44,983 nt of DNA from Acidobacteriaceae bacterium. GTDB lineage: Bacteria > Acidobacteriota > Terriglobia > Terriglobales > Acidobacteriaceae. Positions 3,257 through 41,434 of the stretch are shown here, one piece after another. Position numbers and translations under genes: made by a program. The notes below the pieces were generated by a model. The model was not told the DNA's origin, ran no database searches, and saw only the letters and a list, made by a program, of their open reading frames with translations. The stretch is from positions 1-44,983 of the forward strand of contig PLXE01000052.1 of NCBI GenBank assembly GCA_003151335.1, in the 5' to 3' direction. Positions within the stretch are counted from its first letter, which is position 1, and every line of letters begins with the position of its first letter.

Positions 3257-3295
3257 GATTGCAGCTCCGGCATAACGTTCAGAACGGGGAAGAAT

Positions 3296-4432: not shown

Positions 4433-4453
4433 AGGCCCGGCAAACGTGGCACA

Positions 4454-5878: not shown

Positions 5879-6969
5879 TGGCCAAGCGGGTCAGCGTGGA
5901 TAAGTGGCTGTTCACGGTTACGCTGTTGCTTGTCTTTATTGGACTGATCATGGTCTTCAGCGCCTCGGCGGTGATGGCGAAGGAGCGCTTCGGTTCGCCC
6001 TACGGTTTCCTGCTGCGGCAGATGGCGTGGGCGGGCGCCGGCCTGGCGGCCATGATCGTGATCATGCACATCGACTACCGCAAATACCGGCGGGCGTCGG
6101 TGGTGTTCACCTTCCTGGGCTTTACCTCGCTGCTGCTGATCGCGGTTTTCCTGTTTCGCGATTCCCACAATACGCACCGCTGGATCAAGCTTGGCGGCTT
6201 CTCCTTGCAACCTTCGGAACTGGCGAAACCCGCAATCATTTTTTATCTCGCATACTTTCTGGAGTCGCGCTGGCAACAGATCACCGACTGGAAGAACGTG
6301 CTGCTGCCGGCCGCCGCTCCGGTAATCTTGTTCGCCCTGCTCATTGTGAAGGAGCCCGACCTCGGCACCGCCATCGCCTGCCTGGCCATCTCCGCCGCCG
6401 TATTGTTCGTGGCGGGGATGAACATGAAATATCTGGGATACGCATTCGTCGCGTCGCTGTTGCCGCTGTACTTCCTGGTGGTTCGCGTGCCGTGGCGCTG
6501 GGCGCGCATGCAGGCCTTCCTCGATCCTTTTAAGGATCCGCAGGGCAAAGGCTTCCACATTATCCAGTCGATGATCGCCGTCAGCACCGGAGGCCTGACC
6601 GGCTTGGGGCTGATGGAAGGCAAGCAAAAACTGTTCTACCTGCCCGAGCCGCATACGGATTTCATCTTCGCGGTCACCGCGGAAGAGCTGGGCTTGTGGG
6701 GGTCGCTCTTGGTGGTCACGCTGTTCGGCATTTTCCTGTATCGCGGCATCCGCACCGCGCTGCGCACCGATGACATGTTCGGCAAGTTTCTGGCGACCGG
6801 CTTCACCGCGATGGTGGTGGTGCAGGCCCTGTTCAACATCAGCGTGGTGCTTGCCATGATGCCGGCCAAGGGAATTCCGCTGCCGTTCATCTCCTACGGC
6901 GGCTCTTCGCTGTTCATCACTCTGGCCAGTGTCGGAGTGCTGCTCAACATCACCCAACAGACGGACTAG
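5878..6969 (+). CDS. ftsW: Septal peptidoglycan polymerase FtsW (SEDS family)
   Basis: FtsW belongs to the SEDS family of membrane glycosyltransferases that polymerise lipid II at the division septum with a partner class B PBP. The 363-residue protein has about ten membrane segments. It shows SEDS motifs such as GLIMVFSAS in the first membrane segment, KEPDLGTAI in the middle, ITAEELG-like [10 protein letters not shown], and [13 protein letters not shown] near the end. Membership of the dcw cluster between murD and murG favours FtsW over RodA. It overlaps murD by one base and is followed after 2 bases by murG. Confidence 0.93.
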
Positions 6970-6971
6970 CC

Positions 6972-8057
6972 ATGCGTGTGATCCTGGCTGGAGGCGGAAC
7001 CGGCGGACATGTTATTCCTGCATTAGCCATTGCGCAGGAATTGCGTTCGCGCTACCACGCGGAGGTGCTGTTCGTCGGCACGCAGCGAGGCATCGAGACC
7101 CGCCTGGTTCCGGCGGCGGGATTCCAACTGCATCTCATCCAGGTTGGCGCGCTGAATCGCGTGGATCTCGCGACCCGGCTCAAGACTCTGCTGGATCTTC
7201 CGCGCGCCTTGATGGAGTCCGCGAAGCTGATCCGCGAATTTCGGCCCGATGTCATGATTGGCGTGGGCGGTTACGCCTCGGGCCCGGCGATGCTGACGGC
7301 GGCCATGATGAGCGTGCCCACGATTGCCTTCGAACCTAACGTGGTCCCCGGTTTCGCCAATCGCATGGTTGCTCCCATGGTGAGTGCGGCGGCGGTGCAC
7401 TTCGAGGCGACGTGTCATTACTTTCGCAATTGCCATGTGACCGGGGTGCCGGTGCGGCAGGAGTTCTTCCATGTTCCAGTGCGTCCCACGAATATGCGTC
7501 CTACGCTGCTGGTGTTTGGCGGCAGTCAAGGCGCACACGCCATCAACCAGGCCGTGTTGGACGCTCTGCCAAAACTGATGGAGGCGGTGCCGGGAATCCA
7601 CGTCATCCATCAGACCGGCGAGACAGATTACGTTCCCGCCCAGGAAGTTTATTTGCGCACCATGATTTCGGCGGAGGTGTCGCCTTTCATCGATGACATG
7701 CCCGGTGCGTTCGCCCGTGCCGACCTGCTGGTGTGCCGCTCCGGCGCCAGCACCGTCGCCGAAATCACGGCGGCAGGGAAGCCCGCTATCTTCGTTCCTT
7801 TGCCAACCGCCGCCGCCGACCACCAGACCCAGAATGCGGCGACGCTCGCCGATGGCGGCGCCGCCCGCTTGTTACCGCAGTCTGAACTTTCCAGCGACCG
7901 CCTGGTGAACGAGATTGCCGAACTGTTGCGCGACCGCGCGCGGTTGGCGGCGATGGCGGAGGCGGCGCGTCGCTTTGCTCACCCGGATGCAGCCGCCAGG
8001 ATCGCAGCGCTCGCGGCCCGCGCCGCTGGCGTCCAAAGCCAGCACGCTGTAGCCTAG
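6972..8057 (+). CDS. murG: Lipid II synthase MurG (GlcNAc transferase)
   Basis: MurG is a peripheral membrane glycosyltransferase (family 28) that adds GlcNAc from UDP-GlcNAc to lipid I, making lipid II. The 361-residue protein begins with the glycine-rich loop [16 protein letters not shown]. It has the second glycine loop [11 protein letters not shown] and the donor-binding region [19 protein letters not shown]. The start lies 2 bases after the ftsW stop. The C-terminus is alanine- and arginine-rich and ends 15 bases before murC. Confidence 0.95.
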
Positions 8058-8072
8058 TGATTCGTCTCCCGC

Positions 8073-9479
8073 ATGTTTGCAAAAATCCAACGCGTCCATT
8101 TTGTCGGAATCGGCGGCATCGGTATGAGCGGTATCGCCGAGGTGCTGCTCAATCTCGGCTACAAGGTGTCCGGCTCCGACCTGAAGCCGTCGCCGGTCAC
8201 CCATCGCCTGGTTGCAATGGGGGCCGTTATCTGCGGCGGGCATCGCGCAGAAAATATAGTCGGCGCCGAAGTAGTGATTACCAGCTCGGCCATCACCCGC
8301 GACAATGCCGAAGTCGTCGCCGCGCACCAGCAGCATATTCCGGTCATTCAGCGCGCCGAAATGTTGGCGGAATTGATGCGCCTGAAATACGGCATCGCCG
8401 TCGCCGGCATGCACGGCAAGACCACGACCACTTCGATGATCGCGGCGGTGTTGGCTGCGGGCGGTCTCGATCCCACGGTTGTCGTCGGAGGCCGCGTGGA
8501 CGCGATGGGCTCCAATGCGCGGCTCGGGAAATCGCAATACCTGGTAGCGGAGGCCGACGAAAGCGATCGCTCCTTCCTGAAACTCTCGCCGATTCTCGCC
8601 GTGGTCACCAACCTTGACCGTGAACACATGGACTGCTATCGCAACATGGAAGACGTGGAGCAGACCTTCCTGAAGTTCATGGACTTGGTGCCCTTCTACG
8701 GGATGGTTGTCGCCTGCAATGACAACGACGATCTGCGCCGGCTGCTGCCCGCGGTGCAACGGCGGACCCTGACTTATGGAACGCATGACCAATCCGACTT
8801 CCTGATTTCGAATGTGCATTGCGGCCCGCGCAAAGATTCTGCGGCGCTGAGCAGCTTTCACGTCAGCTATCGCGGAAGTTCGCTGGGCGAATTCCATCTG
8901 CGCGTTCCCGGAGAACACAATGTGCGGAATGCAACCGCGGCGATTGCGGTGGGGATCGGGCTCGACGTGCCGGTCGAGGACATCCGGCAGGCGCTGCAAA
9001 ACTTTGACGGAGTGGATCGCCGCTTTCAGAGGCTCGGCAGCGCCGGTGGCGTCACCGTGGTTGACGATTATGGGCACCATCCCACGGAGATTCGCGCCAC
9101 GCTGGCGGCGGCGCGCCAATGCGGATTCGGCAAGGTGCATGTCATCTTCCAGCCGCACCGCTACACCCGCACCCAACTACTGCTGGAGGAATTTTCAACC
9201 GCCTTCCGCGCCGCGGATTCGGTCATCGTGCTCGATATTTACCCAGCGCATGAGCCGCCTATCCCAGGAATTACTGGCGAGATGCTGGCGGACCGCATCA
9301 CGGAAGTTGGCGGGCAGGAAGCGCTCTACGCTTCTTCGTTTGCCGAAGCGGTGAAGCTGGCGGCGAGCGCGGCGATGCCAGGTGACATGATTCTGACGCT
9401 AGGCGCGGGAAGTGTTTCGCATCTTGCGCCGCAGGTGTTGGAGGAACTGGAGAGTCAGAGGGCGAACAGCATCGGATAA
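8073..9479 (+). CDS. murC: UDP-N-acetylmuramate--L-alanine ligase MurC
   Basis: MurC adds L-alanine to UDP-MurNAc, the first peptide step of the cytoplasmic pathway. The 468-residue protein has the N-terminal motif HFVGIGGIGMSGIAEVL, the ATP loop GMHGKTTTTSM, EADESDRSF in the central domain and DDYGHHPTEI at the start of the C-terminal domain, all family signatures. It is the last mur gene in the row. murB, which makes UDP-MurNAc and often follows murC, is not present here. Confidence 0.95.
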   Translation: MFAKIQRVHFVGIGGIGMSGIAEVLLNLGYKVSGSDLKPSPVTHRLVAMGAVICGGHRAENIVGAEVVITSSAITRDNAEVVAAHQQHIPVIQRAEMLAELMRLKYGIAVAGMHGKTTTTSMIAAVLAAGGLDPTVVVGGRVDAMGSNARLGKSQYLVAEADESDRSFLKLSPILAVVTNLDREHMDCYRNMEDVEQTFLKFMDLVPFYGMVVACNDNDDLRRLLPAVQRRTLTYGTHDQSDFLISNVHCGPRKDSAALSSFHVSYRGSSLGEFHLRVPGEHNVRNATAAIAVGIGLDVPVEDIRQALQNFDGVDRRFQRLGSAGGVTVVDDYGHHPTEIRATLAAARQCGFGKVHVIFQPHRYTRTQLLLEEFSTAFRAADSVIVLDIYPAHEPPIPGITGEMLADRITEVGGQEALYASSFAEAVKLAASAAMPGDMILTLGAGSVSHLAPQVLEELESQRANSIG

Positions 9480-9551
9480 GGGCGCGTGGATTTTCGGAAA
9501 CGATCAACATCCTGACGACGCTTCGCAACCGAGTTTGAAACGAAATTGACA

Positions 9552-9577
9552 CGAGTGCCGATGATTCTCAGCACTCG
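9552..9577. terminator. Possible hairpin between converging murC and reductase genes
   Basis: CGAGTGC at 9552-9558 and GCACTCG at 9571-9577 form a perfect 7-bp stem with a 12-base loop. It stands between the murC stop and the end of the converging reductase gene. No clear T-run follows on either strand, so it is only a weak terminator candidate. Confidence 0.35.
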
Positions 9578-9601
9578 CGACATCGTGAGGAACGGTCAGG
9601 T

Positions 9602-10600
9602 TCAGCGGTCGATCGTCTTCATACTTGCTTCCGTATAGCGATCGCCGACAATTTCATTCTGTGGCACCGCCGCCTCCAACTCCGCCACCTCCTCCGGCGT
9701 CAACTTGATCGCCGCGGCGGCTGCATTCTCTTCCAGGTATTTCCTTCGCTTGGTTCCCGGAATCGGCACCACGTCCTCGCCCTTGGCGAGCACCCATGCC
9801 AGCGCCAACTGGCCAGGCTTTACCCCCGTGCGCTCCGCAATCGCTCTCACCCGCTGCACCAGCACTTGGTTCTTGTCGAAGTTCTCGCCCGCAAACCGCG
9901 GATACCGCTGCGCCCGGAAATCGCTGCTCTGCAGATCGCTGGGCTTGGTGATGGTACCGGTCAGGAAGCCACGCCCCAGCGGACTGTACGGCACGAATCC
10001 GATCCCCAACTCGCGAACCGTCGGCAGTATCGCTGCTTCCACGTGCCGCTCCCAGAGTGAGTACTCCGTCTGCAGGGCTGTAATGGGATGCACCTTGTGG
10101 GCCCGCCGGATGGTCTTCGGCGACGCTTCGGACAGTCCCAGATACTTCACCTTGCCGGCCTTCACCAGTTCCGCCATGGCGCCTACCGTGTCCTCAATCG
10201 GAGTCTGCGGATCCACGCGGTGCTGGTAGTACAAGTCGATGTGGTCCAGGCCCAGTCGCTTCAGCGATGCGTCGCAGGCCGCCTTCACGTATTCCGGCTT
10301 GCCACTGATCGCCCAGGATGACGGATCCTCTTTCTTGCGGATATTGGCAAACTTCGTCGCCAGGAAGACCTCATCGCGCCGCCCGCGGATCGTCCTGCCG
10401 ACCAACTCTTCGTTATCGCCAATCCCATACGCGTCTGCCGTATCCAGAAAGTTGATGCCCAAGTCCAACGCCCGCAATATCGTCGCGGACGATTCCTCAT
10501 CGTTCCGCTCGCCGTAGAACTCACTCATCCCCATGCAACCGAGTCCCATGCGGGAGACGATCGCGCCCTGTGAACCAAGCTTTACCTTTTCCATGCTCAT
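9602..10600 (-). CDS. Aldo/keto reductase
   Basis: This is a 332-residue NADPH-dependent aldo/keto reductase of the bacterial class that acts on small aldehydes and ketones; the substrate cannot be told from sequence. The catalytic tetrad is visible: Asp53 and Tyr58 in [10 protein letters not shown], Lys83 in VFLATKF, and His127 in LYYQHRVDP. The C-terminal cofactor region [16 protein letters not shown] is typical. It lies alone on the minus strand between murC and ftsQ, where murB and ddl are found in many dcw clusters, so it looks like an insertion. A second in-frame ATG at 10594 is an equally good start. Confidence 0.9.
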
Positions 10601-10852
10601 GTCGATGTAGATGGTTGAATGCGCCGTCAGGTATCAAACATTCCCTGTAAACTTTGTTCAATTTCGGGCACCAGACGATAAAGCGCTTTGAAGATGCCTT
10701 GCTGAGAAGACGTGGAGAGGGGCTTTGAGTTTACTGTTGTGGTTCCAGTTCTCCGGCGTGGTCGTCTGAACTCAAAAGCCTCTCCTTAATCCGAGCGAAA
10801 ACAGTTATAGTGAGGCGAATGGCCGAAGTTCTGGGCGTTTCACCCGGTTTTC
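10601..10852. promoter_or_regulatory. Divergent intergenic region upstream of ftsQ
   Basis: This 252-base gap separates the diverging reductase and ftsQ genes. TATAGT at 10806-10811, one mismatch from the -10 consensus, is the best promoter candidate for ftsQ-ftsA; no good -35 box is seen. Upstream of it lies a long inverted repeat (listed separately). No strong ribosome binding site precedes the ftsQ ATG. Confidence 0.35.
10715..10784. repeat. Large imperfect inverted repeat upstream of ftsQ
   Basis: GAGAGGGGCTTTGAGTT (10715-10731) pairs with AACTCAAAAGCCTCTC (10769-10784), leaving a 37-base loop. The arms match except for a small internal offset. It could be a transcription barrier, an operator or the remains of a small mobile element. 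Its position in front of the ftsQ promoter candidate is what makes it notable. Confidence 0.6.
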
Positions 10853-11956
10853 ATGGCTCGGAAAAGTTCATCAGCAACCACGGAAGACGAACTCGAAGCG
10901 CGGGTCAGCGATGCCGCGGTGCGTTTGCGCGGCTTCGACGAATCGCCGCTCGACGCCCGCATGCTCGATCTCGATGACGAGGCCGAGTCGCCATTTTTGC
11001 GCGGACAAAAGCGCGTTCCGGTGCGCCGGGGAGCCCTGCCGCGCAAGGCCGCCAGCCGCATCAAGATCGCGCTCATCCTGATCCTGGTGCTGGGGAGCGT
11101 TGCTTTAATCTGGATCACGCTTCATCAATACGCCGCGCGATCGTGGCGCTTTCGCATCGATTCCAGCGACAACATCCAGGTCTCGGGCAACAGCAATGTC
11201 AGCCGCTCGCAGGTAATGGAGGTGATGGCGAGCGACCTCAATCGCAACGTGTTTTTCGTTCCGCTGGAGTTACGCAAGAACCAACTGGAGCAAATTCCCT
11301 GGGTGCAAACGGCTGCGGTGCAGCGACTGCTGCCCGACCGCCTGAACATTGTGGTCAAAGAGCGCACGCCGGTCGCATTTGTCGAAGTCAATTCACACAT
11401 TGAACTGATTGACGCCCACGGCGTAATTATGGACCTTCCCGCCGGCCAGCAGGCAAAATATTCCTTCCCGGTGGTGGTCGGAATGATGGACAGCGAGCCG
11501 GTCTCGACGCGCGCCGCGCGCATGAAGATCTACGTTCAGTTGATGAAGGAACTCGATGCTGGGGGCGCGCATTACTCGCGCGACCTCAGCGATGTCGATC
11601 TTTCCGATCCTGACGATGTGAAGGCGACCGTCACCGATCCGAACGGGGCGGTGCTGGTGCATCTGGGATCGTCGAACTTTCTGGAGCGTTTCAAAATCTA
11701 CGTGGCTCACGTGCAGGAGTGGAGAGCGCAGTTCCAAAAACTGGAATCGGTGGATTTGCGTTTTGATCACCAGGTCATCGTGAATCCAGATTCCGCAGGC
11801 GGTAACCCCAAGAGCGCTGCTGCGCCGGGCAGCGTGGAGAATGCGAAGAGCGCACCGGCGCCTGGTAGCTTAGAGAGTACGACGAACGCACCCGCGCCAC
11901 CCGCAACCGTCCAAAGCAAATCGGCGGTGAAGCACAAAACGAAGAAGCACTCGTAA
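10853..11956 (+). CDS. ftsQ: Cell division protein FtsQ
   Basis: FtsQ is a single-pass membrane protein that links early and late divisome proteins. The 367-residue protein has a cytoplasmic N-terminal part of about 69 residues, one membrane segment at about residues 70-90, and a POTRA domain at about 99-170 with IQVSGNSNVSRSQVME and LPDRLNIVVKERTPVAFVEV. The FtsQ domain follows. The last 50 or so residues are a low-complexity Ala/Pro/Ser tail with three imperfect repeats of the type SAxAPGSxE and a lysine/histidine-rich end, which is longer than in the common FtsQ. The stop is 2 bases before ftsA. Confidence 0.88.
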   Translation: MARKSSSATTEDELEARVSDAAVRLRGFDESPLDARMLDLDDEAESPFLRGQKRVPVRRGALPRKAASRIKIALILILVLGSVALIWITLHQYAARSWRFRIDSSDNIQVSGNSNVSRSQVMEVMASDLNRNVFFVPLELRKNQLEQIPWVQTAAVQRLLPDRLNIVVKERTPVAFVEVNSHIELIDAHGVIMDLPAGQQAKYSFPVVVGMMDSEPVSTRAARMKIYVQLMKELDAGGAHYSRDLSDVDLSDPDDVKATVTDPNGAVLVHLGSSNFLERFKIYVAHVQEWRAQFQKLESVDLRFDHQVIVNPDSAGGNPKSAAAPGSVENAKSAPAPGSLESTTNAPAPPATVQSKSAVKHKTKKHS

Positions 11957-11958
11957 CC

Positions 11959-13179
11959 ATGGGAAGTCAAACAGAAAACCTGCTCACGGTGATTGACGTC
12001 GGTAGCGCCAAGACGTGCGTGATCGTCGCCGAAGTGAATGACTATGCCTTGCGTTATCGCGGCCACGGCATCGCCGATTCGCGCGGCATGCGAAAGGGCG
12101 TGATCGCCGATCTCGACAAGGCGGTCGACTCCATCCGGAAGGCGGTCGAAGACGCCGAGAACGTGGCGCAAGCTCCGGTGGAGCACGCCGTGGTGGGAGT
12201 GGCCGGTTCGCACATCCGCGGCGTGAACAGTCACGGCGGCATCGTGCTGGGACCGCGTTCGCGCGAGATCACCCGCGAAGATGTGCGCCAGGCGGTGGAG
12301 AAGGCGCGCTCGATCGCCATGCCCGATGACCGCGAGGCGCTGCACCTGCTGCCGCAGGAATTCATCGTGGATGGGCAGGGCGGTGTTCACGATCCCGCCG
12401 GGCTGATGGGCAGAAAGCTGGAAGTGCGCGTTCATGTGGTGACCGCGGGAACCACGGCCACCCAGAATGTGGTCTCAGCCATGAACCGCGCCGGTATCCA
12501 CGTCAACGACACCGTCTTTGAAGCACTGGCTTGCGCCGACTCGGTCTTGCAAACCGATGAGCGCGAACTCGGCGTTTGCCTGGTTGACATTGGCGCGGGT
12601 TCGACCAGTCTCATCGTGTACTACGAAGGCGTGGTGATCCACAGCGGCGCCATTCCCATCGGCGGCGATCATTTCACCAACGATGTGGGAGTGGGCTTCC
12701 GCACCCCGATTCCCGACGCCGAGAACATCAAGAAAATGTTCGGCTGCGCCATCGTCACGCGCATTCCCGAGGGCAATGAAATCGAAGTGCCGTCGGTGGG
12801 CGACCGCCCCTCGCGCCTCATGCAGCAGCGCATGTTGGGAGAAATTCTGGAGCCGCGGGCGCGCGAGCTGATGGAATTGCTGCGCGATCACCTGCGCCAG
12901 GCGGGAGTTTACGATTTGCTGGGCGCGGGACTGGTGTTTACCGGCGGCGGCTCGCGGCTCAATGCGCTGCTGGAGGTCGCGGATGGAATTCTGCGCCGGC
13001 CGGTGCGACTGGGTTATCCGGTGCCCATCGCCAAGCTGCCTTCGAATCTGTTGGAGCCGGAGTTTGCCACGGCCATTGGGATGGTGCTCTACGGACATCG
13101 TGCGCGGCAGGCGCGCATGAACATTGATCGCGGACTGGGAGCAAAACTCAAAGCATTGTTCGCCCGGCAGAACGGCTGA
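11959..13179 (+). CDS. ftsA: Cell division protein FtsA
   Basis: FtsA is an actin-like ATPase that tethers FtsZ filaments to the membrane. The 406-residue protein begins with the phosphate-1 motif VIDVGSAKTCVIVAEV, has the second phosphate motif CLVDIGAGSTSLIVY and the adenosine motif VFTGGGSRLNAL. The C-terminal stretch RGLGAKLKALFARQNG is a plausible amphipathic membrane-binding helix. The ATG follows the ftsQ stop after 2 bases. ftsZ follows only after a gap of about 440 bases filled with a broken gene and repeats. Confidence 0.94.
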   Translation: MGSQTENLLTVIDVGSAKTCVIVAEVNDYALRYRGHGIADSRGMRKGVIADLDKAVDSIRKAVEDAENVAQAPVEHAVVGVAGSHIRGVNSHGGIVLGPRSREITREDVRQAVEKARSIAMPDDREALHLLPQEFIVDGQGGVHDPAGLMGRKLEVRVHVVTAGTTATQNVVSAMNRAGIHVNDTVFEALACADSVLQTDERELGVCLVDIGAGSTSLIVYYEGVVIHSGAIPIGGDHFTNDVGVGFRTPIPDAENIKKMFGCAIVTRIPEGNEIEVPSVGDRPSRLMQQRMLGEILEPRARELMELLRDHLRQAGVYDLLGAGLVFTGGGSRLNALLEVADGILRRPVRLGYPVPIAKLPSNLLEPEFATAIGMVLYGHRARQARMNIDRGLGAKLKALFARQNG

Positions 13180-13259
13180 AGATCTGGCAAGGCCGGAAAC
13201 GGCAGCGCGAAATTCGGATTTAGCACGCGCGAAATCGGTTGAATGATGGAGGTCTGGCA

Positions 13260-13403
13260 ATGGCGCGTATATCCGAGAAGCACAAGAAGTGGTTGAAGGA
13301 GCCGAAGTACCGGAAGGCATACGAGGCCCTGGAGGAGGAATTCGTCCTGGCATCTGCCGTGATCGATGCGCGAAAAGGGCGTAAGAGCGCATGTGAGAAC
13401 TGA
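13260..13403 (+). pseudogene. Truncated HigA-type (XRE) antitoxin remnant
   Basis: A 47-codon frame starts at an ATG 7 bases after a good GGAGG ribosome site (13248-13252). The visible part, WLKEPKYRKAYEALEEEF followed by VLASAVIDARKG, matches the conserved N-terminal leader of HigA-like antitoxins, which continue into a helix-turn-helix of the type AGLTQEELA. Here the frame breaks off exactly where the helix-turn-helix should start and runs into repeat DNA. No toxin gene is next to it. I read it as a decayed antitoxin. Identification is by recalled family pattern, so it is moderately sure. Confidence 0.55.
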
Positions 13404-13618
13404 GTTTGGGTTGGTACAGTGGGATGAATTGCGCAAAATGCAAGCCCCGCAGGGGCGAAATAATACTAGCCCAGGGCGTACCGGGGTCCCCAACGCGCGC
13501 CGCTTTTGCACGTGTTGGGGTGGTTGAGCCCTGGGTAGGAACGAAGACATTATCTGAGCCGGCTTCAGCCGGCGGCACAAACAATCGCGAATTGCCAGTC
13601 GCGATATTGGAGTAAAAG
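13404..13618. repeat. Palindromic repeats between ftsA and ftsZ
   Basis: No gene is seen. A small GCCCCGCAGGGGC palindrome lies at about 13442-13454. An outer pair, CCCAGGGC near 13464 and GCCCTGGG near 13528, encloses an inner pair, CCCCAACGCG and CGTGTTGGGG. The piece GCCGGCTTCAGCCGGC at about 13558-13573 resembles the repeats at 49 and 30505. Such nested palindromes are the REP type. They push ftsZ away from ftsA. The ftsZ ribosome site GGAG lies at 13609-13612. Confidence 0.55.
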
Positions 13619-15031
13619 ATGATCGAAGATTTCAACGACAAAAGCCAGCCCGAAAACGACATTCGCATTCACTTCAACGAAGAGCTGCTGAACGCCGCGA
13701 AGATCAAGGTGATTGGCGTCGGCGGCGGTGGCGGCAACGCCGTCAATCGCATGATCGAGTCGCACCTGGAAGGCGTGGAATTCGTGGTGGCCAACACCGA
13801 TCTGCAGGCGCTCAAGCTGTCGAATGCGCCGGTGAAGATCCAGCTTGGGGTCAAGCTGACCAACGGCCTGGGCGCAGGCGCCAATCCCGACGTTGGCCGC
13901 AAGGCTGCGCTGGAAGATGCCGACAAAATCATCGAAGCGCTGGAAGGCGCCGACATGGTGTTCGTCACCACCGGTCTTGGCGGCGGCACCGGCACCGGTG
14001 CGGCGCCGATCATCGCGTCGCTGGCCAGCGAAATGGGCGCGCTCACGGTCGCGGTTGTCACCAAGCCATTCGCCTTCGAAGGCAAGCGCCGCCAGAACCA
14101 GGCGGAGCGCGGCTTGCAGGAGCTGATCGATTCGGTTGACACCACTGTCGTCATCCCGAACGAAAAGTTGCTGGCGGTGGCCAAAGACGCAGGTTTCTTC
14201 GAATCGTTCCGCGTCGCCGACGACATCCTGCGCCAGGCGGTGCAGGGCATCTCCGACATCATCACCATTCCCGGCATCATCAACCGCGACTTCGCCGACG
14301 TAAAGACCATCATGGCGGGCATGGGCTATGCCGTGATGGGCACGGCCACCGCGAGGGGCGAAGGCCGCGCCACGCTGGCGGCGCAGGCCGCGATTGCGTC
14401 TCCTCTGCTGGAGGCCGGAGCCATCGATGGCGCGCGCGGCATCCTCATCAACATCACCGGCTCCAGTTCGCTGCGGCTGGCGGAGGTGAACGAAGCCTCC
14501 ACCATCATCCAGAGCGCCGCGCATGAAGACGCCAACATCATTTTCGGCGCCGTGCTCGACGAGAAGATGAAGGACGAAGTCAAGATCACGGTGATTGCCA
14601 CCGGCTTCCGGGAAGTTTCCCGCCGGCGCGAGGCGTCGAACCCAGTGGCTGACGTGGTGCACCAGGCGCGCGCCACCGCAGCCAGCGTGCACGCGACCTA
14701 CGAAGTGCCGAGTATGCGCGAGCCCCAGCCGGCGCCCGAAAAGGCTGTGCCTACCCGCTTCGAAGCGGTCAAGCCGGCAGAACCTGAATCGCCGCGGGCG
14801 GCGGAGCGGCCGCGGGCCGTGCCATACATTCCCGACAATCTCGACGATATTGATTCCGAGATCGTGCGCCACGCCGAGCCGATGGACGAGGCGCAAATGC
14901 AGGCACGGGCCGCCGCTGCCGGTCGAGAGGAGCCGCCCACGATTGACACCGTGAGCAGCAGCGTCAACATCACCTATGACTCGGATGACCTGGAGATTCC
15001 GGCCTTCCTGCGCAAGCGTACGGAAAGCTGA
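13619..15031 (+). CDS. ftsZ: Cell division protein FtsZ
   Basis: FtsZ is the tubulin-like GTPase that forms the division ring. The 470-residue protein has [17 protein letters not shown] near the start, the GTP signature [10 protein letters not shown], and the T7-loop region with [12 protein letters not shown] long variable linker follows from about residue 320, rich in Pro, Ala and Glu. The conserved C-terminal peptide [10 protein letters not shown], which binds FtsA and other partners, closes the protein. Length exceeds the common 380-400 residues because of the linker. GGAG ends 6 bases before the ATG. Confidence 0.96.
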
Positions 15032-32714: not shown

Positions 32715-32790
32715 GTGCCCCAGGTTCGCGTCCCTCTTTTGGACGCTAACCTGGGCAAAGAAGAGTCCGGGCCGACCCACTGAACATTTT
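32715..32790 (-). repeat. RAYT-tail element between IS1-like remnant and hyuB
   Basis: Palindrome GTGCCCCAGGTTCGCGTCC (32715-32733) and GGACGCTAACCTGGGC (32741-32756), joined on the minus strand to the last codons of a RAYT gene ([15 protein letters not shown] and stop). One end cuts the transposase remnant; the other supplies the stop codon of hyuB. Confidence 0.85.
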
Positions 32791-34436
32791 CAATCCACTG
32801 CGCCCCATCCCCCGCCGCCGGGGGTTTCGATGCGGACGCGTTCGCCGCGCCGCAAGCGGGTGCTGCCCTTGCTGGGCATGAGTTCCGTGGATCCATCGGC
32901 GCGAAGTATCTCGGTGCGTCCCGGCGCTCCGTCCGCGCCGCCCGCCAGGCCGTACGGTCGAAACTTGCGCCGGTCGGCGAGCAGGGTCACAGTGGCGTCG
33001 GCCAGCACTTCCATTTCTCTGACGATGCCGTCGCCGCCGCGATGTTTTCCTTCCCCGCCGCTGCCCGCGCGCAGCGCATACTTCATCACCCTTAACGGAT
33101 AACTGCATTCCAGCGCTTCGGCGGGCGTGTTGAGCGAGTTGGTCATGTGCGTGTGTACGCCCGAGACGCCGTCATGGGCCGCACTGGCGCCCGAGCCTCC
33201 GGCAACGGTTTCGTAGTACGCGAACGGAATGGCCTTCCCGGTGCGGTCGTCCATGCCGCCGATGGTGAGATTGTTCATGGTCCCCGACGACGCGGCGGGG
33301 ATGTGCTGGGGCAGCGCCTGGGCCAGTGCGCGCAGCAGCACGTCAACGATGCGCTGCGAGGTCTCGACATTTCCGCCAGCCACCGCTGCGGGTGGACGCG
33401 CATTGACGACCGTGCCCTCGGGCGCGATCAACTGAATGGGGCGCATCAATCCGGCGGTGGCGGGAACGTCTTCGCGCAGCAGGCAGCGGAAAACGTAGAA
33501 GCAGGCGGAATACGTGATGGCTTCCACGGCGTTAATGCTGCCTTCCACCTGGGGCGAGCTGCCGGTGAAATCGATGATGACGGGTCGCGGCTTCCGGCCC
33601 GCAGTTTTTGTTGTGTGCGGAAAGGTGATGCGCACCGCAATGCGCACCGGCGCGCCCACCCCACCGCGCGCTGGGGACCCCGGTCCGTCGCTGACGCCAT
33701 CGTCATCGAGTACGTCCTCGGCGGTGTAGCTCCCCGCCGGCACCGTCGCCAAAAATGCGCGCATCATTTTCTCGGAGTAATCCAGCAGCGCTCGCGCCGC
33801 ACGCTGCACCCGTGGGAGGCCGTAACGCGCGCAAAGTTCGAGCAGCCGCGTGCTGCCGGTGTGGCACGCCGCCAGTTGCGCGCTGAGGTCGCCTTCACGT
33901 TCTTCGGGAGTGCGAACATTGTTGAGCAACAGCGCCAGGATGTCGCGGTCAAGGGTTCCGGCGCGCACGATCTTCACCGGAGGAATGCGCAATCCCTCCT
34001 GGTAGATCTCGCGGCACGGACCCATCGAGCCAGCGTAGGTTCCGCCAACGTCGGCGTGATGCGCGCGCGCCGCGACGAAGAATTCGGGCGCGGCATTGCG
34101 CCTGGCGCGTCCCACAAACACCGGGGCGACGACGGTGATGTCGGGCAGATGCGTGCCGCCGCGGAAGGGATCGTTGAGCATCGCCACGTCGCCCGGCGCG
34201 AGCGGCAACTCGGCAATGGCGGCGCGCACCGACATCGGCATCGAGCCCAGATGCACGGGCATGTGATCGCCCATCGCCAGCACGTTGCCGGCTGCGTCAA
34301 ACAGCGCGCAGGAGTAATCGCGACGCTCCTTGATGTTGGGCGAGAACGCCGTGCGGCGCAGCGCGGCCCCCATCTCTTCCGCGACCGCGTGAAACAGATG
34401 CTTGAAGACCTCGAGCTCGATGGGGTCGGCGCGCAT
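32790..34436 (-). CDS. hyuB: Hydantoinase B/oxoprolinase-family protein
   Basis: HyuB-type proteins form one subunit of ATP-dependent N-methylhydantoinases, 5-oxoprolinases and related amidohydrolases. The 548-residue protein has family motifs [50 protein letters not shown] and RAHHADVGG, and ends in [13 protein letters not shown]. The start at 34436 is at the family's usual first residues. No hyuA gene is adjacent, although the two subunits are usually neighbours. The stop codon belongs to a RAYT-tail element (TGA of TTGAAAATG), so the original last residues may be lost. Substrate cannot be named. Confidence 0.88.
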
Positions 34437-34697
34437 GTGTGAGCGAGTGTAACTCAGGCGCTGGCAGCGGGACACTTTGCGTCGTCGTTTTGGACGCAAA
34501 TCACTAAAGTTTTGGGACGCAAATCACTAAACCGCCGGTCGCGCAAGAGATTTCCCAAATATTTTTGTTGACATTCCGTTCGAGTAACCGCAATATCTTG
34601 TGTTAGACATACTGCTCATGCAACATCTTGGGCGGGTATGGCACGGGCCAAAAAACTCGACCTTCAAGGGAGAAGGTTACACAAGGAGGATTACCCA
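34437..34697. promoter_or_regulatory. Intergenic region with a tandem direct repeat and a -35 box
   Basis: GTTTTGGACGCAAATCAC (34487-) and GTTTTGGGACGCAAATCAC (34509-), each followed by TAAA, are 22- and 23-base direct repeats in the upstream region of hyuB, like paired operator sites. TTGACA at 34568-34573 is a perfect -35 box on the plus strand for the small peptide gene; TATCTT at 34595 is a poor -10 candidate at too long a spacing. AAGGAGG at 34683-34689 serves the peptide gene. Confidence 0.45.
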
Positions 34698-34834: not shown

Positions 34835-34979
34835 GCGCGCCCTCAGCGCGCTGGATTACGGATGGCCCACCAGCCGCGGATCCTGTTGAATCCATCGCAG
34901 CTGTGACCTGCCACAACCAAGATTCAACCGTTGACGCCGGAGTTGTGTACTCTAGAATGAATCGCTGGAAAGCATATTC

Positions 34980-36407
34980 ATGGACGTTCTCAAGAAACTT
35001 TTTGAAGATCATTTCCACGCGCCGGTGGATAAGGCGGAGCCGCTGCGCGGCCAGCTCGGCGGCTCCGAGCGCAGCATGGTCCGGCTGGCCAGCGAAAAAT
35101 TCAGCGCCATTGGCGTGCGCTACGAGGTGCGCGAAGAGAACGTCGCTTTCCTCGAATTTTCCCGGCATTTTCGCCGCCACGGGCTGCCGGTGCCGGAAAT
35201 CTATGCCGAAGATTTAGAGCACGGCGCTTATCTGGAAGAGGACCTGGGCGACACCACGCTGTTTGAGTTCCTGTCGAACAATCGGGCAGGCGAGACCATC
35301 GCTCCCCAGGCGGTCGAAGCCTACCGCAAGGTTGTGGCCGTGTTACCGCGCTTTCAGATCGAAGCCGGCCGCGATTTGAATTACAAAGTGTGCTATCCGC
35401 GCGCTAGTTTCGATCGCCAGTCCATCGCCTGGGACCTGAATTATTTCAAGTACTATTTTCTCCGGCTGGCCAATATTTCATTCAACGAACAGGCGCTGGA
35501 AGTAGATTTCGGCCGCCTGACGAAATTCCTGCTGAGCGCCCCGCGCGATTACTTTCTCTATCGCGATTTCCAATCGCGCAATGTGATGTTGCGCGCCGGC
35601 AGTCCATTCTTCCTGGACTATCAGGGTGGCCGCAGAGGCGCGCTGCAATACGATATCGCGTCGCTTTTATTCGATGCCAAGGCCGATTTGCCGCCCGAGC
35701 TGCGCCAGCAATTGCTGGATCATTATCTCGACACGCTTGCCGGTTTTATCGAACTGGACCGCGAAGCGTTCCTGCGGCATTACTACGCCTACGTGTACGT
35801 TCGCATGATGCAGGCGATGGGCGCTTACGGCTTTCGCGGTTTTTATGAGCGCAAACCCCACTTTCTGCAAAGCGTGCCGTTCGCGCTGAAGAACCTGCGC
35901 TGGCTGCTGCACAACGTCCAACTGCCCATTGCGCTGCCGGCGCTGATGGAGGCGTTCACAAGCATTCTGGGCTCGGACAAATTGCAGGGCCTGGCGCCCG
36001 CAATCGGCAAGGTCACGGTACGGATTTGCAGCTTTTCATTTCACCGCGGCCCGCTGAAAGACGAGACCGGACATGGCGGCGGCTTCGTTTTCGATGCGCG
36101 GAGCCTTCCCAATCCCGGACGCGAGGAGCGCTTCAAAGCTCTCACCGGCAAAGACGGGCCCGTGGCCGATTACCTGAATCAGCAAGAGAGTGTGCATCAA
36201 TTTCTGGCTGGCGTCACCGCGCTGGTGGACGCCAGCGTGAGCGATTATCAGCGTCGTGGTTTTAAGAGCTTGACGGCGTCGTTTGGCTGCACTGGCGGCC
36301 AGCATCGCTCGGTATATCTGGCGGAGCAATTGGCCAAACATTTGCGGGGCAGGGAAGGGGTCGAGGTGGTGGTGCAGCATCGTGAACTGGAGAACTTGGG
36401 CAAATGA
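34980..36407 (+). CDS. AmgK-like sugar kinase fused to a RapZ C-terminal domain
   Basis: A 475-residue fusion. Residues 1 to about 335 are an aminoglycoside-phosphotransferase-like kinase: the catalytic loop is YRDFQSRN at 194-201 (Asp196), followed by the metal motif FLDYQGG. This fold includes AmgK, which phosphorylates MurNAc and GlcNAc at the anomeric carbon in wall recycling. Residues from about 344 to 475 match the C-terminal domain of RapZ: FVFDARSLPNPGREERF, LTGKDGPVADYL and GCTGGQHRSVYLAEQLA (436 onward). In E. coli that domain senses glucosamine-6-phosphate and binds a small RNA. RapZ's own N-terminal P-loop domain is absent. The MurU-like gene overlaps its stop by 4 bases. Substrate is inferred. 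Confidence 0.85.
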   Translation: MDVLKKLFEDHFHAPVDKAEPLRGQLGGSERSMVRLASEKFSAIGVRYEVREENVAFLEFSRHFRRHGLPVPEIYAEDLEHGAYLEEDLGDTTLFEFLSNNRAGETIAPQAVEAYRKVVAVLPRFQIEAGRDLNYKVCYPRASFDRQSIAWDLNYFKYYFLRLANISFNEQALEVDFGRLTKFLLSAPRDYFLYRDFQSRNVMLRAGSPFFLDYQGGRRGALQYDIASLLFDAKADLPPELRQQLLDHYLDTLAGFIELDREAFLRHYYAYVYVRMMQAMGAYGFRGFYERKPHFLQSVPFALKNLRWLLHNVQLPIALPALMEAFTSILGSDKLQGLAPAIGKVTVRICSFSFHRGPLKDETGHGGGFVFDARSLPNPGREERFKALTGKDGPVADYLNQQESVHQFLAGVTALVDASVSDYQRRGFKSLTASFGCTGGQHRSVYLAEQLAKHLRGREGVEVVVQHRELENLGK

Positions 36408-37150
36408 AAGCGATGGTTTTGGCCGCCGGCCTGGGAACGCGATTGCGGCCGCTCACCGACGATCGTCCCAAGGCGCTGGTGGAAGTCGCCGGGCGTACCA
36501 TGCTGGAGATCACGCTGGCCCGCTTGCGCGCGATTGGAATTCGCGAAGTGATCATCAATGTGCATCACTTTGCCGGCATGGTCGTCGAGTATCTGAAAGC
36601 GAACGACAACTTCGGCATGAAGGTTGAGGTCTCGCGCGAGGAGGTCTTGCTCGACACCGGTGGCGGGCTGAAAAAGGCCGCTCATTTCTTTCTGGAGGAT
36701 TCGAGCGACTCGAAAGAGCCGTTCCTGGTGCACAATGTCGATGTCATCAGCACCATCGATGTGGGGCGCATGGTGCAGTTTCATATTGACAACCGGGCGC
36801 TCGCGACACTGGCGGTGCAAGTCCGCGACAGCTCTCGCTACCTGCTGTTCGACCAGCAGTTGCAACTTTGCGGCCGGCGGTCCGGACGCAATGGCGAAAC
36901 TGAATTGGTTCGACCTTCGCCACACATGCAGGCGCTGGCATTTTGCGGCATACACGTAATTTCACCTCACCTGTTTGGGAAAATGACGGAAGCGGGCGTG
37001 TTCTCCATCATCGACTGCTATCTGCGGCTGGCTGGCCGTGAAGAAAAAATTCTTGCCTTCCGCGCCGACGAATATTATTGGGGCGATCTGGGCACGCCCG
37101 AGAAAGTGACGCGGGCGGCTCAGGACCTAAAGCGTAAGCGTCCGGAGTAG
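36404..37150 (+). CDS. MurU-like sugar-1-phosphate nucleotidyltransferase
   Basis: A 248-residue nucleotidyltransferase. The signature loop AAGLGTRLRPLTDDRPKALV is at the N-terminus, the metal-binding HNVDVIST in the middle and WGDLGTPEKVTRA at the end. Its length and motifs fit MurU, which makes UDP-MurNAc from MurNAc-1-phosphate, though other sugar-1-phosphates are possible. The ATG overlaps the stop codon of the kinase-RapZ fusion (ATGA), so the two are translated together. In pseudomonads amgK and murU form such a pair, bypassing the de novo route to UDP-MurNAc. Confidence 0.85.
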   Translation: MKAMVLAAGLGTRLRPLTDDRPKALVEVAGRTMLEITLARLRAIGIREVIINVHHFAGMVVEYLKANDNFGMKVEVSREEVLLDTGGGLKKAAHFFLEDSSDSKEPFLVHNVDVISTIDVGRMVQFHIDNRALATLAVQVRDSSRYLLFDQQLQLCGRRSGRNGETELVRPSPHMQALAFCGIHVISPHLFGKMTEAGVFSIIDCYLRLAGREEKILAFRADEYYWGDLGTPEKVTRAAQDLKRKRPE

Positions 37151-37798: not shown

Positions 37799-40700
37799 CT
37801 ACTTCGTCATGCGCCGACGAACACTATAACCCACGAACAACAAGCCCGAACCAAGAAGCAATAAGCTGCCCGGCTCCGGAGTTGACGAAGATGGGCCATA
37901 GTCAGACGTAAAGTGAGACCCGGTGCTCGAGGTAAAGCCAGATGCAGTGCCAGATCCACCATCAGCTGCGATGCTGGATGCAATGTCGGATGCAATGTTG
38001 GATGCGAGGAGAGTCGCCTGGCCGTTGTTCGCCTCCAATAGCGCGCCCGACACCACTTCGAGCGTCAGATCGGTCGGGTTGTATTCCAACACGAAGTGTT
38101 CCTCACCGTTGATCGGCAAGCCCAAGACCATCGAGAACGTTCCCGACTCGCCCGAAAAGTGCATGATGTCGAAGGCATCGCCCAGTTCGGGGAGAAAGCC
38201 GTGAATCAAGTCCACGGTCATCAGGCCATTGAGCTGGGCATGGCCCGCGATGTTGAGTTGGTCGTACTCTCCAGGCGCCGTACCCGCAATATCGAAGGTC
38301 AAGCTTCCATGCAGTCCCTGCGTGTAGTTGCCCATAAAGTAAAGCTGGCCAATGGTCCTAAGGCTGTCGCCGATGTTAATGGAGGCATTCGAAACAATCG
38401 GTCCGCGAATAGTGCCCTGATTGCCATAGACGGCGCCACCAGCGAAATTGATCATCCCTCTTCCTGAAATATTCAGGCTGCCGTCCACCGTCGTCTGTCC
38501 GGCAGTCTGCGTGTAGTAGCCTACAACGGCGAGACTGCCGTTCGGAGCGATGTTAACAATTCCGATGTTGGTGAAGCCGGAGAGAGCGGAGGCACCAGCG
38601 CGCGGCCCGCCAGTCACGTTCAGGGTTGCTCCGTCAGCGATGTACACAGCCCCCTGGTTCACCACCGATCCAATGTTGGCAATATCGGAGGCGCCCCCGA
38701 GCGAGAAGGTTCCCGTCAAGCCGTTGGTCAACCGGCCGGCGACGGTTATCGTGTTTCCGCCAGTGCCGTAGGAGCTCGTGGTGATCTGTCCGGAGTTGCT
38801 TATATTGCGATTGACTTGGAGTGTCGATCCACCCTCCAAGTCGATAACCCCGCGATTGACGACGCTGCTGATCGTGGCGGTGTCGCCATAGCCAGACAGG
38901 AGTAATGAGCCCGACGCGTCGTTGGTGAGAGTGCCGCCGATGGATAGCGAATTCCCGTCGCTCATGGAAATAGTTCCGGAGTTATCTGTATTGCCGACTT
39001 GGAGGACTGATAGGTTCTCCAGATTGATCGATCCGCTGTTGGTCAGCGTCCCGCCACTGAGCGAGGAGTAGACAAGGTTAATCGACCCGGAATTCACAAT
39101 ATCGCCAGTTCCCATCGACGATCCGGAGACGGAGACGGCGCCCGAATTTGATAGAGCTCCCAGTGTGGCCTGAGAGTAGTCCACCTCGAGTTGCCCGCTA
39201 TTGGTAAGCAACCCGCCCACCGTCAGATGGCTCCCCTGCGTGGTAATCGTGCCGGAGTTGTTTGCATCCCCGCCCACCGCAAACTCCGCCGTCTGCAGCC
39301 CAATGGTTCCGCTGTTGTCCAAGCTCCCGACAATTGCGGAGTCCTGAATAGAGTCACTGCCGCTCACCCTAAACTGGCCGCTGTTCGTCAATCTGCCATC
39401 AATGATGATCTGGTTTTCGTCGCCGCCGTAGATGCTCTGGTAAGTCTCAATGGTTCCCGAGCTAATTACGTCGCCATAAACCTCTAATATTGAGTGAAAC
39501 GTCACCCCGACGTATCCAGAGTTCAGCAAGTTCCCAATAGTGGCATTGGGGGTGCTACCCGGAGCGTGCGGACCCGACAAGTAGACGGACCCAGTATTGG
39601 TCAGTGTGCCGATATTCAGTGTGCCAGTGAAGAAACCTGCCAAAAACTGCCCGGAGGTGCTGATAGTCCCGGAGTTGCTTGCGACGCCGACGCTGAGGTT
39701 GGATTCATTCTCCACACCGATGGAACCGCTATTCACCAAGTCGGCGACGTTGGCCCAAGATCCGTTCTGTAGATTGATCATTCCGCTCTCGACGTTGACT
39801 AAGCTATTCATAGTGGCGGTATCAAACGCGTTGAGCGCTAAGCTTCCCAGGTTTGTCAGTGTGCCATTGATCGTCAGGCTGTTTCCGCCGAAACTGTTGC
39901 CGAGGGAAATAGACCCGAAGTTACTTGCGTCGCCGTTGACTTGCAGAACCGAGCCGTTTTCTAGATCAATATTTCCGCTGTTGACCAAACTCCCAGCGCT
40001 AGCATAATCGGAAGGGCCATTCAGCACGAACGAACCGCTATTGGTCAGCTTACCAGCGATTGCTACCCCGTTGCCGCCGGAGCCTTCATAAATGCTGGTG
40101 ACGATCGACCCGAGGTTATTTGCGTCGCCGTTGACGTGAAGCCGTGACGCACCCTCCAAGTCGATAGCTCCGCTGTTAACAACGCTTCCGATGCTGGCTT
40201 GGCCGTAGAGAACAAAGTTTCCTCCTGTGCCATTAGTCAGCGTGCCGCCTATATTGAGCACGCTCGTACCGGCCGTGGTGATCTCACTGCCGTTATTTAC
40301 GTTGTCATTGACGTGGACGCTTGATCCGCCCTCCAAGTCAATGGCTCCGCTGTTAACGATGCCTCCGATGCTGGCTTGGCCGCTGAGAAGAAGGTTTCCG
40401 CCTAGGTCATTCATCAGTGTGCCACCTATGTTCAGCACGCTCCCACCGGACGTGGTGATCTGTCCGGCGTTATACATGTCACGATCCACTTGGAGCATCA
40501 CGCCGGCACCTGAGGGTGTCAGATCGATGGTCCCACTGTTTACGATGCTCCCGATCGTGGCGCTGTCGGGTCCAATGCAGATTAAAGGTGGACCGCAGCC
40601 GCCCAAAGCGAATGAGCCCGTGTTGGTCAGGGTGCCACCGATTTGGAATTGGATCCCTCCCCCGAAACCCCGTTCCGGATCACCCACGGTGGCAATACTC

Positions 40701-41434
40701 CCGGAGTTGTTCACATCGCCCATGACCCCCATTTCCCCAGCTACGCCCAAAGTGATGTCTCCGCTATTGATGAGGCTACCCGATTCAACGCTGCCTTCAT
40801 ATAGGTGCATATGTCCCGAGTTGATGAGGATGCCATTGACAAAAATGTCGCCATTGTTGAAAGAGGTCTGACCTTGCATAAGCCCAGAGTTGATGAGGTC
40901 GCCATTGACGTACACCTGTGTTCCCCACCCCAGCTGGATAAGCCCGGAGTTGGTGAGGTTGCCATTGACTTGGAGCGAGGAACTCAGGAGGTCGATCTGT
41001 CCATTATTGAAGGAGCTAGCCCCGACGATCACCGTGCTGCCATGGGATAGAGATAGCAAACCTCCCTGGTTTGCGAGGGAACCCGCAATGGTCAGCGTCT
41101 GTGGAGTGCCGTTATCCACAAGTTGTGAATCGTAGAACAGGGTGAGCGATGCAATGCTGGGACTTGTGTCCAAGTAGACAACACCAGGGGCAAAATAACC
41201 TATGACGACGTCACTGTCACCGGTCGGCAGGCCCATGTCCCAATAATTCCAGTCACTCCAGTTGCCCATGCCGCCGATCCAATTGTCGGTTGACGTCGAA
41301 CTGTTAATTGCGTATGCGCTGTGAAATGCGAAGTCGTCGTAATATGTGGATTTATGAATTGGAGCAGCATAGCCGCCACTTACAGCCATGACGGCCAAGA
41401 GGATCAGCAGCAGTGGCCCGCGGTGCTGGTTCAT
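37799..41434 (-). CDS. Large beta-helix repeat protein with PEP-CTERM sorting signal
   Basis: A 1211-residue secreted protein. Residues 1-23 are a signal peptide (GPLLLILLAVMAVSGGYAA). Most of the protein is an array of short repeats of the type LTNSGSI, VNGDxxNSG, INLENGSxLQV and IGGTLTN, more than twenty in number, expected to fold as a right-handed beta-helix like many surface adhesins. After it comes an autotransporter-associated type region (GNYTQGLHGSLTFDIAG). The end, TPEPGSLLLLGSGLL followed by SVRRR, is a complete PEP-CTERM signal, so an exosortase should process it and the protein is destined for the envelope or extracellular matrix. No exosortase is in the window. Confidence 0.88.
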   Translation of the reverse strand: MNQHRGPLLLILLAVMAVSGGYAAPIHKSTYYDDFAFHSAYAINSSTSTDNWIGGMGNWSDWNYWDMGLPTGDSDVVIGYFAPGVVYLDTSPSIASLTLFYDSQLVDNGTPQTLTIAGSLANQGGLLSLSHGSTVIVGASSFNNGQIDLLSSSLQVNGNLTNSGLIQLGWGTQVYVNGDLINSGLMQGQTSFNNGDIFVNGILINSGHMHLYEGSVESGSLINSGDITLGVAGEMGVMGDVNNSGSIATVGDPERGFGGGIQFQIGGTLTNTGSFALGGCGPPLICIGPDSATIGSIVNSGTIDLTPSGAGVMLQVDRDMYNAGQITTSGGSVLNIGGTLMNDLGGNLLLSGQASIGGIVNSGAIDLEGGSSVHVNDNVNNGSEITTAGTSVLNIGGTLTNGTGGNFVLYGQASIGSVVNSGAIDLEGASRLHVNGDANNLGSIVTSIYEGSGGNGVAIAGKLTNSGSFVLNGPSDYASAGSLVNSGNIDLENGSVLQVNGDASNFGSISLGNSFGGNSLTINGTLTNLGSLALNAFDTATMNSLVNVESGMINLQNGSWANVADLVNSGSIGVENESNLSVGVASNSGTISTSGQFLAGFFTGTLNIGTLTNTGSVYLSGPHAPGSTPNATIGNLLNSGYVGVTFHSILEVYGDVISSGTIETYQSIYGGDENQIIIDGRLTNSGQFRVSGSDSIQDSAIVGSLDNSGTIGLQTAEFAVGGDANNSGTITTQGSHLTVGGLLTNSGQLEVDYSQATLGALSNSGAVSVSGSSMGTGDIVNSGSINLVYSSLSGGTLTNSGSINLENLSVLQVGNTDNSGTISMSDGNSLSIGGTLTNDASGSLLLSGYGDTATISSVVNRGVIDLEGGSTLQVNRNISNSGQITTSSYGTGGNTITVAGRLTNGLTGTFSLGGASDIANIGSVVNQGAVYIADGATLNVTGGPRAGASALSGFTNIGIVNIAPNGSLAVVGYYTQTAGQTTVDGSLNISGRGMINFAGGAVYGNQGTIRGPIVSNASINIGDSLRTIGQLYFMGNYTQGLHGSLTFDIAGTAPGEYDQLNIAGHAQLNGLMTVDLIHGFLPELGDAFDIMHFSGESGTFSMVLGLPINGEEHFVLEYNPTDLTLEVVSGALLEANNGQATLLASNIASDIASSIAADGGSGTASGFTSSTGSHFTSDYGPSSSTPEPGSLLLLGSGLLFVGYSVRRRMTK

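Follow-up and report, generated by a model that had tools for sequence, protein, structure and literature searches.

What does the C-terminal domain of RapZ do when it forms the tail of a sugar kinase? The question is raised by a gene in a 44,983-nucleotide stretch of DNA from an Acidobacteriaceae bacterium (contig PLXE01000052.1 of assembly GCA_003151335.1), hereafter the window. In this gene an APH-type kinase is joined to a RapZ C-terminal domain (RapZ_C), and a MurU-like nucleotidyltransferase gene follows directly. An earlier note, made from the sequence alone, proposed a self-sensing recycling kinase whose activity is set by amino-sugar levels, or one that binds RNA. Comparison of sequences, predicted structure and gene content partly supports this interpretation. 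The kinase and its partner probably salvage N-acetylmuramic acid (MurNAc), and RapZ_C is tentatively read as a built-in phosphatase for MurNAc-6-phosphate (MurNAc-6P) in an anabolic MurNAc recycling route. The relevant features of the window are the following.

34980..36407, forward strand: fused gene with an ATG start, 475 aa, APH/AmgK-like sugar kinase and RapZ C-terminal domain (Pfam/NCBIfam scans, AlphaFold2)
35559..35582, forward strand: YRDFQSRN, the APH catalytic loop, residues 194-201 (exact match in the sequence)
36069..36083, forward strand: GHGGG insertion, residues 364-368 (alignment)
36285..36311, forward strand: GCTGGQHRS, the CX5RS loop with Cys437 and Arg443, residues 436-444 (exact match; alignment)
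36404..36407, forward strand: ATGA, start/stop overlap of the fused gene and the MurU-like gene, 4 bases common to both
36404..37150, forward strand: MurU-like nucleotidyltransferase, 248 aa (Pfam/NCBIfam scans)

Pfam scans of the open reading frame (ORF) assigned residues 52-253 to APH (PF01636; E 2.7e-13, 50.7 bits, cut-off 23.2) and residues 346-471 to RapZ_C (PF22740; E 3.8e-35, 121 bits, cut-off 27). The two domains therefore lie in one chain as the earlier note had read them, and both motifs that it quoted are exact. R195, D196, R200, and N201 of the APH loop are invariant among 53 aligned family members. The structure prediction that the note had suggested was carried out, and the AlphaFold2 model of the fusion has a mean predicted local distance difference test score (pLDDT) of 92.0. 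Among named kinase families, AmgK scores best for the window kinase and for seven further kinases scanned; the NCBIfam AmgK models give 62.0 and 46.6 bits, below their cut-offs of 500 and 550. The RapZ N-terminal domain (PF03668), found in 13 of 13 ordinary RapZ proteins, was not found in the fused protein by Pfam scan, and the NCBIfam RapZ model (NF003828) matches over model positions 159-278 only. An ordinary RapZ is also encoded in the window genome. The partner protein contains an NTP_transferase domain (PF00483, 91 bits), and its best NCBIfam model is MurU (NF045761), although the MurU models score 130 and 112.5 bits, below the cut-offs of 250 and 370. MurU is likewise the best named family for three further partners scanned. 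The 4-base overlap with a MurU-type gene, also claimed earlier, was thus confirmed with a partner assigned below the model cut-off.

The spread of the family was followed in a relatives set of 61 whole genomes (the window's own and 60 relatives), and in a wider scan with one genome per species. The fused gene occurs in 17 of the 61 genomes, counting G003 and G004, whose assemblies contain only part of it; in G060 the kinase and MurU are present and RapZ_C is missing. The wider scan confirmed at least 591 related stretches, ordinary RapZ included, of which the best 80 were kept. These 80 loci cover Acidobacteriota, Bacteroidota, Elusimicrobia, Calditrichia, Ignavibacteria, Gemmatimonadota, Planctomycetota, and Delongbacteria. 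Of these loci, 78 have the RapZ loop and the kinase match in one reading frame; in the two others the contig ends (L045) or the frame is broken (L066). The fusion is genuine, neither chance nor an assembly join, because 16 further genomes of the 61 carry it and the frame is kept in these 78 loci. An even draw of 197 Acidobacteriota contained a close kinase in only 5, all in long frames, and a distant kinase in 57 (26-38% identity, mostly short frames). These 57 and the fused Acidobacteriota G123, G164, and G212 are outside every co-occurrence count below. Of the 76 named loci with 700 or more bases of downstream sequence, 55 have a MurU-like gene whose start lies no more than 1 kb downstream. 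Three genomes encode RapZ_C as a stand-alone gene (133-135 aa) directly after the kinase, with MurU next in two; Pfam confirmed the domain in two of them. On the tree these genes represent two changes, or about two origins.

Some members of the family are misnamed or unusual. The records of Bacteroides finegoldii (L202:3986-5416) and Parabacteroides distasonis (L203:3986-5416) call the fused kinase "RNase adapter RapZ", which is a misleading name; a nucleotidyltransferase gene comes next, with a 4-base overlap in P. distasonis. Both records are labelled plasmids (95 and 278 kb), yet they carry genes typical of chromosomes and could therefore be pieces of one. In a Calditrichaceae assembly the fused gene is split into two pieces (L066:3884-5314). 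At L054:6510-9398 the open frame reaches about 490 codons beyond the upstream side of the match and has 722 aa when counted from its first start; the additional stretch may be an extra N-terminal part or simply a long open frame.

The gene content of these genomes points to MurNAc as the salvaged sugar. Strong MurU matches (E 2.6e-64 or better) were found in 18 of 18 kinase genomes of the relatives set and in 0 of the 43 others, whose best match was 1.6e-22. MurQ is the catabolic alternative to the AmgK-MurU route. It was absent from 10 of the 18 kinase genomes (9 of 17 fused, and G060) versus 2 of the 43 without the kinase (G041 and G059), with the partial MurQ of G032 (E 1.4e-56) counted as present; among fused genomes at least 90% complete it was absent from 6 of 13. 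Within the genus, G001 is the sole congener without the kinase and has MurQ, and seven of the eight with the kinase, including the window genome, lack it (the exception is G005). The same exclusion was found in 148 Bacteroidota, where kinase matches weaker than E 1e-15 were counted as absent: 97 of 99 kinase-less genomes have MurQ, versus 9 of 49 with the kinase (9/17 fused, 0/32 short-frame kinase). Fisher tests, which ignore relatedness, gave p values of 6e-25 for the Bacteroidota and 2e-5 for the relatives set. In proteobacteria, an either/or relationship of AmgK-MurU and MurQ has been described (PMC5371407). It is above all this exclusion, seen in two phyla, that supports the AmgK-MurU-type salvage proposed earlier; the domain identities are supported as well.

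The pair could instead salvage another sugar, such as GlcNAc, heptose, or mannose. Neither the AmgK nor the MurU match reaches its cut-off, and man1P_GTase_Rv and other sugar nucleotidyltransferase models score near MurU. However, AmgK and MurU remain the best named families for all the kinases and partners scanned, the exclusion of MurQ holds in both phyla, and relatives without RapZ_C adjoin NamZ, an exo-N-acetylmuramidase. In 27 such Bacteroidota (L170-L177, L182-L189, L191-L201), the kinase and MurU-like genes stand with NamZ and a sodium:solute symporter (tblastn; Pfam on one representative), and these genomes have neither AnmK nor MurQ. The operon would be a free-MurNAc salvage unit, supplying unphosphorylated MurNAc. 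Salvage of a different sugar is therefore quite unlikely.

A kinase of this type leaves a gap in recycling. The product of AnmK is MurNAc-6P, and the substrate of AmgK is MurNAc. In Pseudomonas the step between them is closed by MupP (PMC5371407). The AnmK gene of the window genome adjoins a GH3 (NagZ-like) gene on contig C44 (L166:3394-7278), beside a family-5 extracellular solute-binding protein, in what is likely a muropeptide uptake and recycling cluster; MurQ was not found in this genome. A MurNAc-6P phosphatase is needed because AnmK stands next to the GH3 enzyme and MurQ is missing. AnmK without MurQ was found in 9 of the 17 fused genomes of the relatives set, in 22 of 50 fused genomes of other phyla, in 6 of 49 kinase Bacteroidota, and in 0 of 99 kinase-less Bacteroidota. 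Among those 50 genomes, a threshold of E 1e-15 gives 22 with MurQ, 16 of them above the cut-off and with G287 doubtful; in G252 and G257 the end of the contig leaves only a fragment of AnmK. All six of the Bacteroidota carry RapZ_C, fused in four and as the next gene in two. RapZ_C with an intact loop was seen in the sequence of 17 of 17 fused Bacteroidota.

RapZ_C itself is distributed with AnmK. When RapZ_C was scored as present if fused to or adjoining the kinase, and kinase genomes with a tested AnmK state were counted, AnmK was found in 70 of 86 genomes with RapZ_C versus 0 of 29 without it. The 29 comprise G060, G310, and the 27 Bacteroidota; G324 (L190) was left out, as its contig ends at the kinase end. 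The 86 include seven AnmK-plus fused Bacteroidota (G317, G333, G334, G387, G391, G415, and G426) with confirmed RapZ_C, which are outside the kinase tree discussed below. In Bacteroides ihuae, a control genome, AnmK and MurQ are both present and RapZ_C is missing. Separately, G041 and G059 have AnmK, and neither MurQ nor a kinase of this family.

The pocket of RapZ_C was compared in an alignment of 89 fused domains, 3 stand-alone domains, and 13 ordinary acidobacterial RapZ proteins, in E. coli RapZ numbering; L045 and L066, which have no loop motif, were left out. The C-X5-R-S loop is a signature of Cys-dependent phosphatases, and in the AlphaFold2 model it lies between a strand (430-437) and a helix (443-456). 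Among the fused domains, C247, H252, S254, and the two loop glycines are conserved in 89/89 and R253 in 88/89. C247, H252, R253, and S254 are also kept in 3/3 stand-alone and 13/13 ordinary proteins. Other positions have changed. H190 is Gly in 88/89 fused domains (G380 in the window) and His or Asn in RapZ (9 and 4 of 13); W191 is Arg or Lys in 86/89 (R381 in the window) and Phe or Tyr in RapZ; R238 is Phe in 84/89 and Lys in 13/13 RapZ. The fused and stand-alone domains also have a G-rich insertion, which reads GHGGG or GNGGG in most of the rows shown and is absent from the RapZ rows. In E. coli RapZ, H190 is needed for the RNA pocket and W191 for domain contact, while K203 and R211 are RNA contacts. 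K203 and R211 are kept neither in the fused domains nor in ordinary acidobacterial RapZ. The net charge of the C-terminal tail has a median of 0 in 78 fused proteins (-1 in the window) versus +3 in 13 ordinary RapZ, and the domain charge is 1.5 versus 6. A branch with a Shimodaira-Hasegawa-like approximate likelihood ratio test (SH-aLRT) support of 99 separates the recycling domains from ordinary RapZ. These replacements, the insertion, the non-basic tail, and the separate branch suggest that the pocket seems to have been reshaped for another ligand, with a weakened RNA surface.

The route favoured, with reserve, is the following. The NagZ-like GH3 enzyme and AnmK would turn muropeptides into MurNAc-6P, and the RapZ_C half would strip the 6-phosphate through its Cys437-X5-Arg443-Ser444 loop. 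The kinase half of the same chain would then add a phosphate to C1 of MurNAc, and the MurU-like enzyme, translated together with it, would yield UDP-MurNAc. RapZ_C would thus take the role of the HAD phosphatase MupP in Pseudomonas. Of this picture, the domain make-up, the gene pairing, the exclusion of MurQ, the conserved loop, the remodelled pocket, and the place of AnmK beside GH3 are observed; the kinase substrate, the phosphatase activity, and the phosphatase substrate are all inferred here. The phosphatase step is favoured because the CX5RS loop is intact, stand-alone RapZ_C genes follow the kinase, and AnmK is distributed as described.

A ligand sensor, the idea of the earlier note, is the strongest rival. 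RapZ_C would bind an amino-sugar phosphate, glucosamine-6-phosphate (GlcN6P) or MurNAc-6P, and would set kinase activity so that recycling follows demand. The C-terminal domain of E. coli RapZ does bind GlcN6P (PMC9841335, PMC7199280), the anion-pocket loop is intact, and RapZ_C is fused to the kinase in most members seen. Nevertheless, the pocket differs at H190 and W191 and by the insertion, and a GlcN6P sensor is not expected to track AnmK. The stand-alone genes also fit an enzyme better than a switch acting within one chain, since a separate switch would have to bind back. The intact loop, the stand-alone genes, and the AnmK distribution suit a phosphatase step at least equally. Sensing is therefore possible but rather doubtful, and the preference leans to the phosphatase.

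Two further roles appear weaker. RapZ_C might be catalytically silent and only dimerise the enzyme or hold its substrate, as the E. coli domain dimerises alone (PMC7199280), and 29 kinase genomes manage without it. The near-complete conservation of the loop is more than a dimer contact requires, and this role is unlikely. The domain might also turn the kinase into an RNA-binding protein or an RNase adapter, a role suggested by the RefSeq name in Bacteroides and by homology to RapZ. This part of the earlier interpretation was not borne out: the tail is not basic, H190 and W191 are replaced, R238 is mostly Phe, the RapZ N-terminal domain is missing, and the same genome has an ordinary RapZ. Although the loss of K203 and R211 is shared with ordinary acidobacterial RapZ and so weakens the counter-argument, an RNA role is highly improbable.

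Several observations limit the salvage and phosphatase readings themselves. The exclusion of MurQ is partial, as 8 of the 17 fused relatives retain it, and 16 of the 86 genomes keep RapZ_C without AnmK. The linkage of RapZ_C and AnmK changes only twice on a tree of 109 kinases (where G324 is counted as RapZ_C-less, giving 30). The contrast thus depends on two or three evolutionary events, which makes it suggestive without being significant. The rule is also not general: in Pseudomonas, AmgK and AnmK are accompanied by a separate phosphatase, and Caulobacter, used as a control genome, has AnmK with neither MurQ nor RapZ_C. If H190 is the acid, its loss argues against a shared catalytic mechanism. 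For the genomes without AnmK, another source of MurNAc-6P may exist, such as the MurNAc 6-kinase MurK of Tannerella (PMC10465942, PMC5790795).

The idea of a RapZ phosphatase is not new, because Khan and Gorke likened the E. coli RapZ pocket to the phosphatase loop of Cys-dependent protein tyrosine phosphatases (PTPs) and suggested GlcN6P hydrolysis (PMC7199280). Moreover, C247A and C247S kill E. coli RapZ, and GlcN6P in the crystal of its C-terminal domain looked chemically transformed (PMC9841335). A literature search did not find RapZ_C described as the MurNAc-6P step inside an AmgK-type kinase. If the phosphatase reading is true, this step would be accounted for in members of two large phyla, among them gut Bacteroides and Parabacteroides. 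With somewhat more reserve, RapZ_C might be at root a Cys-dependent amino-sugar 6-phosphate phosphatase and the missing MupP of Bacteroidota and Acidobacteriota, with the small-RNA-binding RapZ of E. coli as a derived use of the pocket. The fusion would also offer a simple and apparently RNA-free system for asking whether a RapZ domain hydrolyses its ligand, the question raised for E. coli (PMC7199280). Should RapZ_C turn out to be no more than a sensor, these proteins would still look like MurNAc recycling kinases that the annotation seen here misses.

The surroundings of the pair include one further listed feature.

34931..34958, forward strand: promoter-like site upstream of the kinase/MurU pair, at chance level (1 found, 1.3 expected)

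The kinase and MurU genes form their own pair, since a hydantoinase B/oxoprolinase gene (PF02538, 701.8 bits) lies just upstream on the opposite strand (32790-34499, reverse). Downstream, 37799-41434 (reverse strand) encodes a repeat-rich protein of 1211 aa whose C-terminus bears a PEP-CTERM sorting motif (PF07589, 22.8 bits, cut-off 20.7). A dcw cluster is located at 363-15031, and MurB was not found among the ten ORFs scanned in it. The earlier observation of such a cluster without murB holds to this extent; the remark carries no weight, because MurB is encoded elsewhere in the genome (C95:112932-113333).

Among known systems, AmgK-MurU of Pseudomonas is one of those close to the family. Both have an APH-type kinase with a MurU-like partner, tend to exclude MurQ, and often occur with AnmK. 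Pseudomonas AmgK is a kinase alone and MupP is a separate HAD phosphatase, whereas here RapZ_C is fused and the sequences fall below the AmgK and MurU cut-offs. The AmgK of Tannerella forsythia has been employed in E. coli as an active enzyme (PMC13041923). The NamZ operon of Bacteroidota shares the related kinase and MurU-like gene, but lacks AnmK, MurQ, and, on the stretches read, RapZ_C, and its MurNAc would arrive free. The fusion differs from E. coli RapZ and YvcJ by the missing N-terminal domain, the replacement of H190-W191 by G-R/K, the GHGGG insertion, the absence of a basic tail, and the well-supported separate branch. RapZ_C would take the place of MupP between AnmK and AmgK, but MupP is a HAD protein and RapZ_C an unrelated fold with a Cys-X5-Arg loop and a predicted phosphatase role. 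No HAD family was found in the fused protein by Pfam scan, so the likeness to MupP is one of working only. With the Cys-dependent PTP-like enzymes RapZ_C shares a C-X5-R-(S/T) loop, placed in the model between a strand and a helix.
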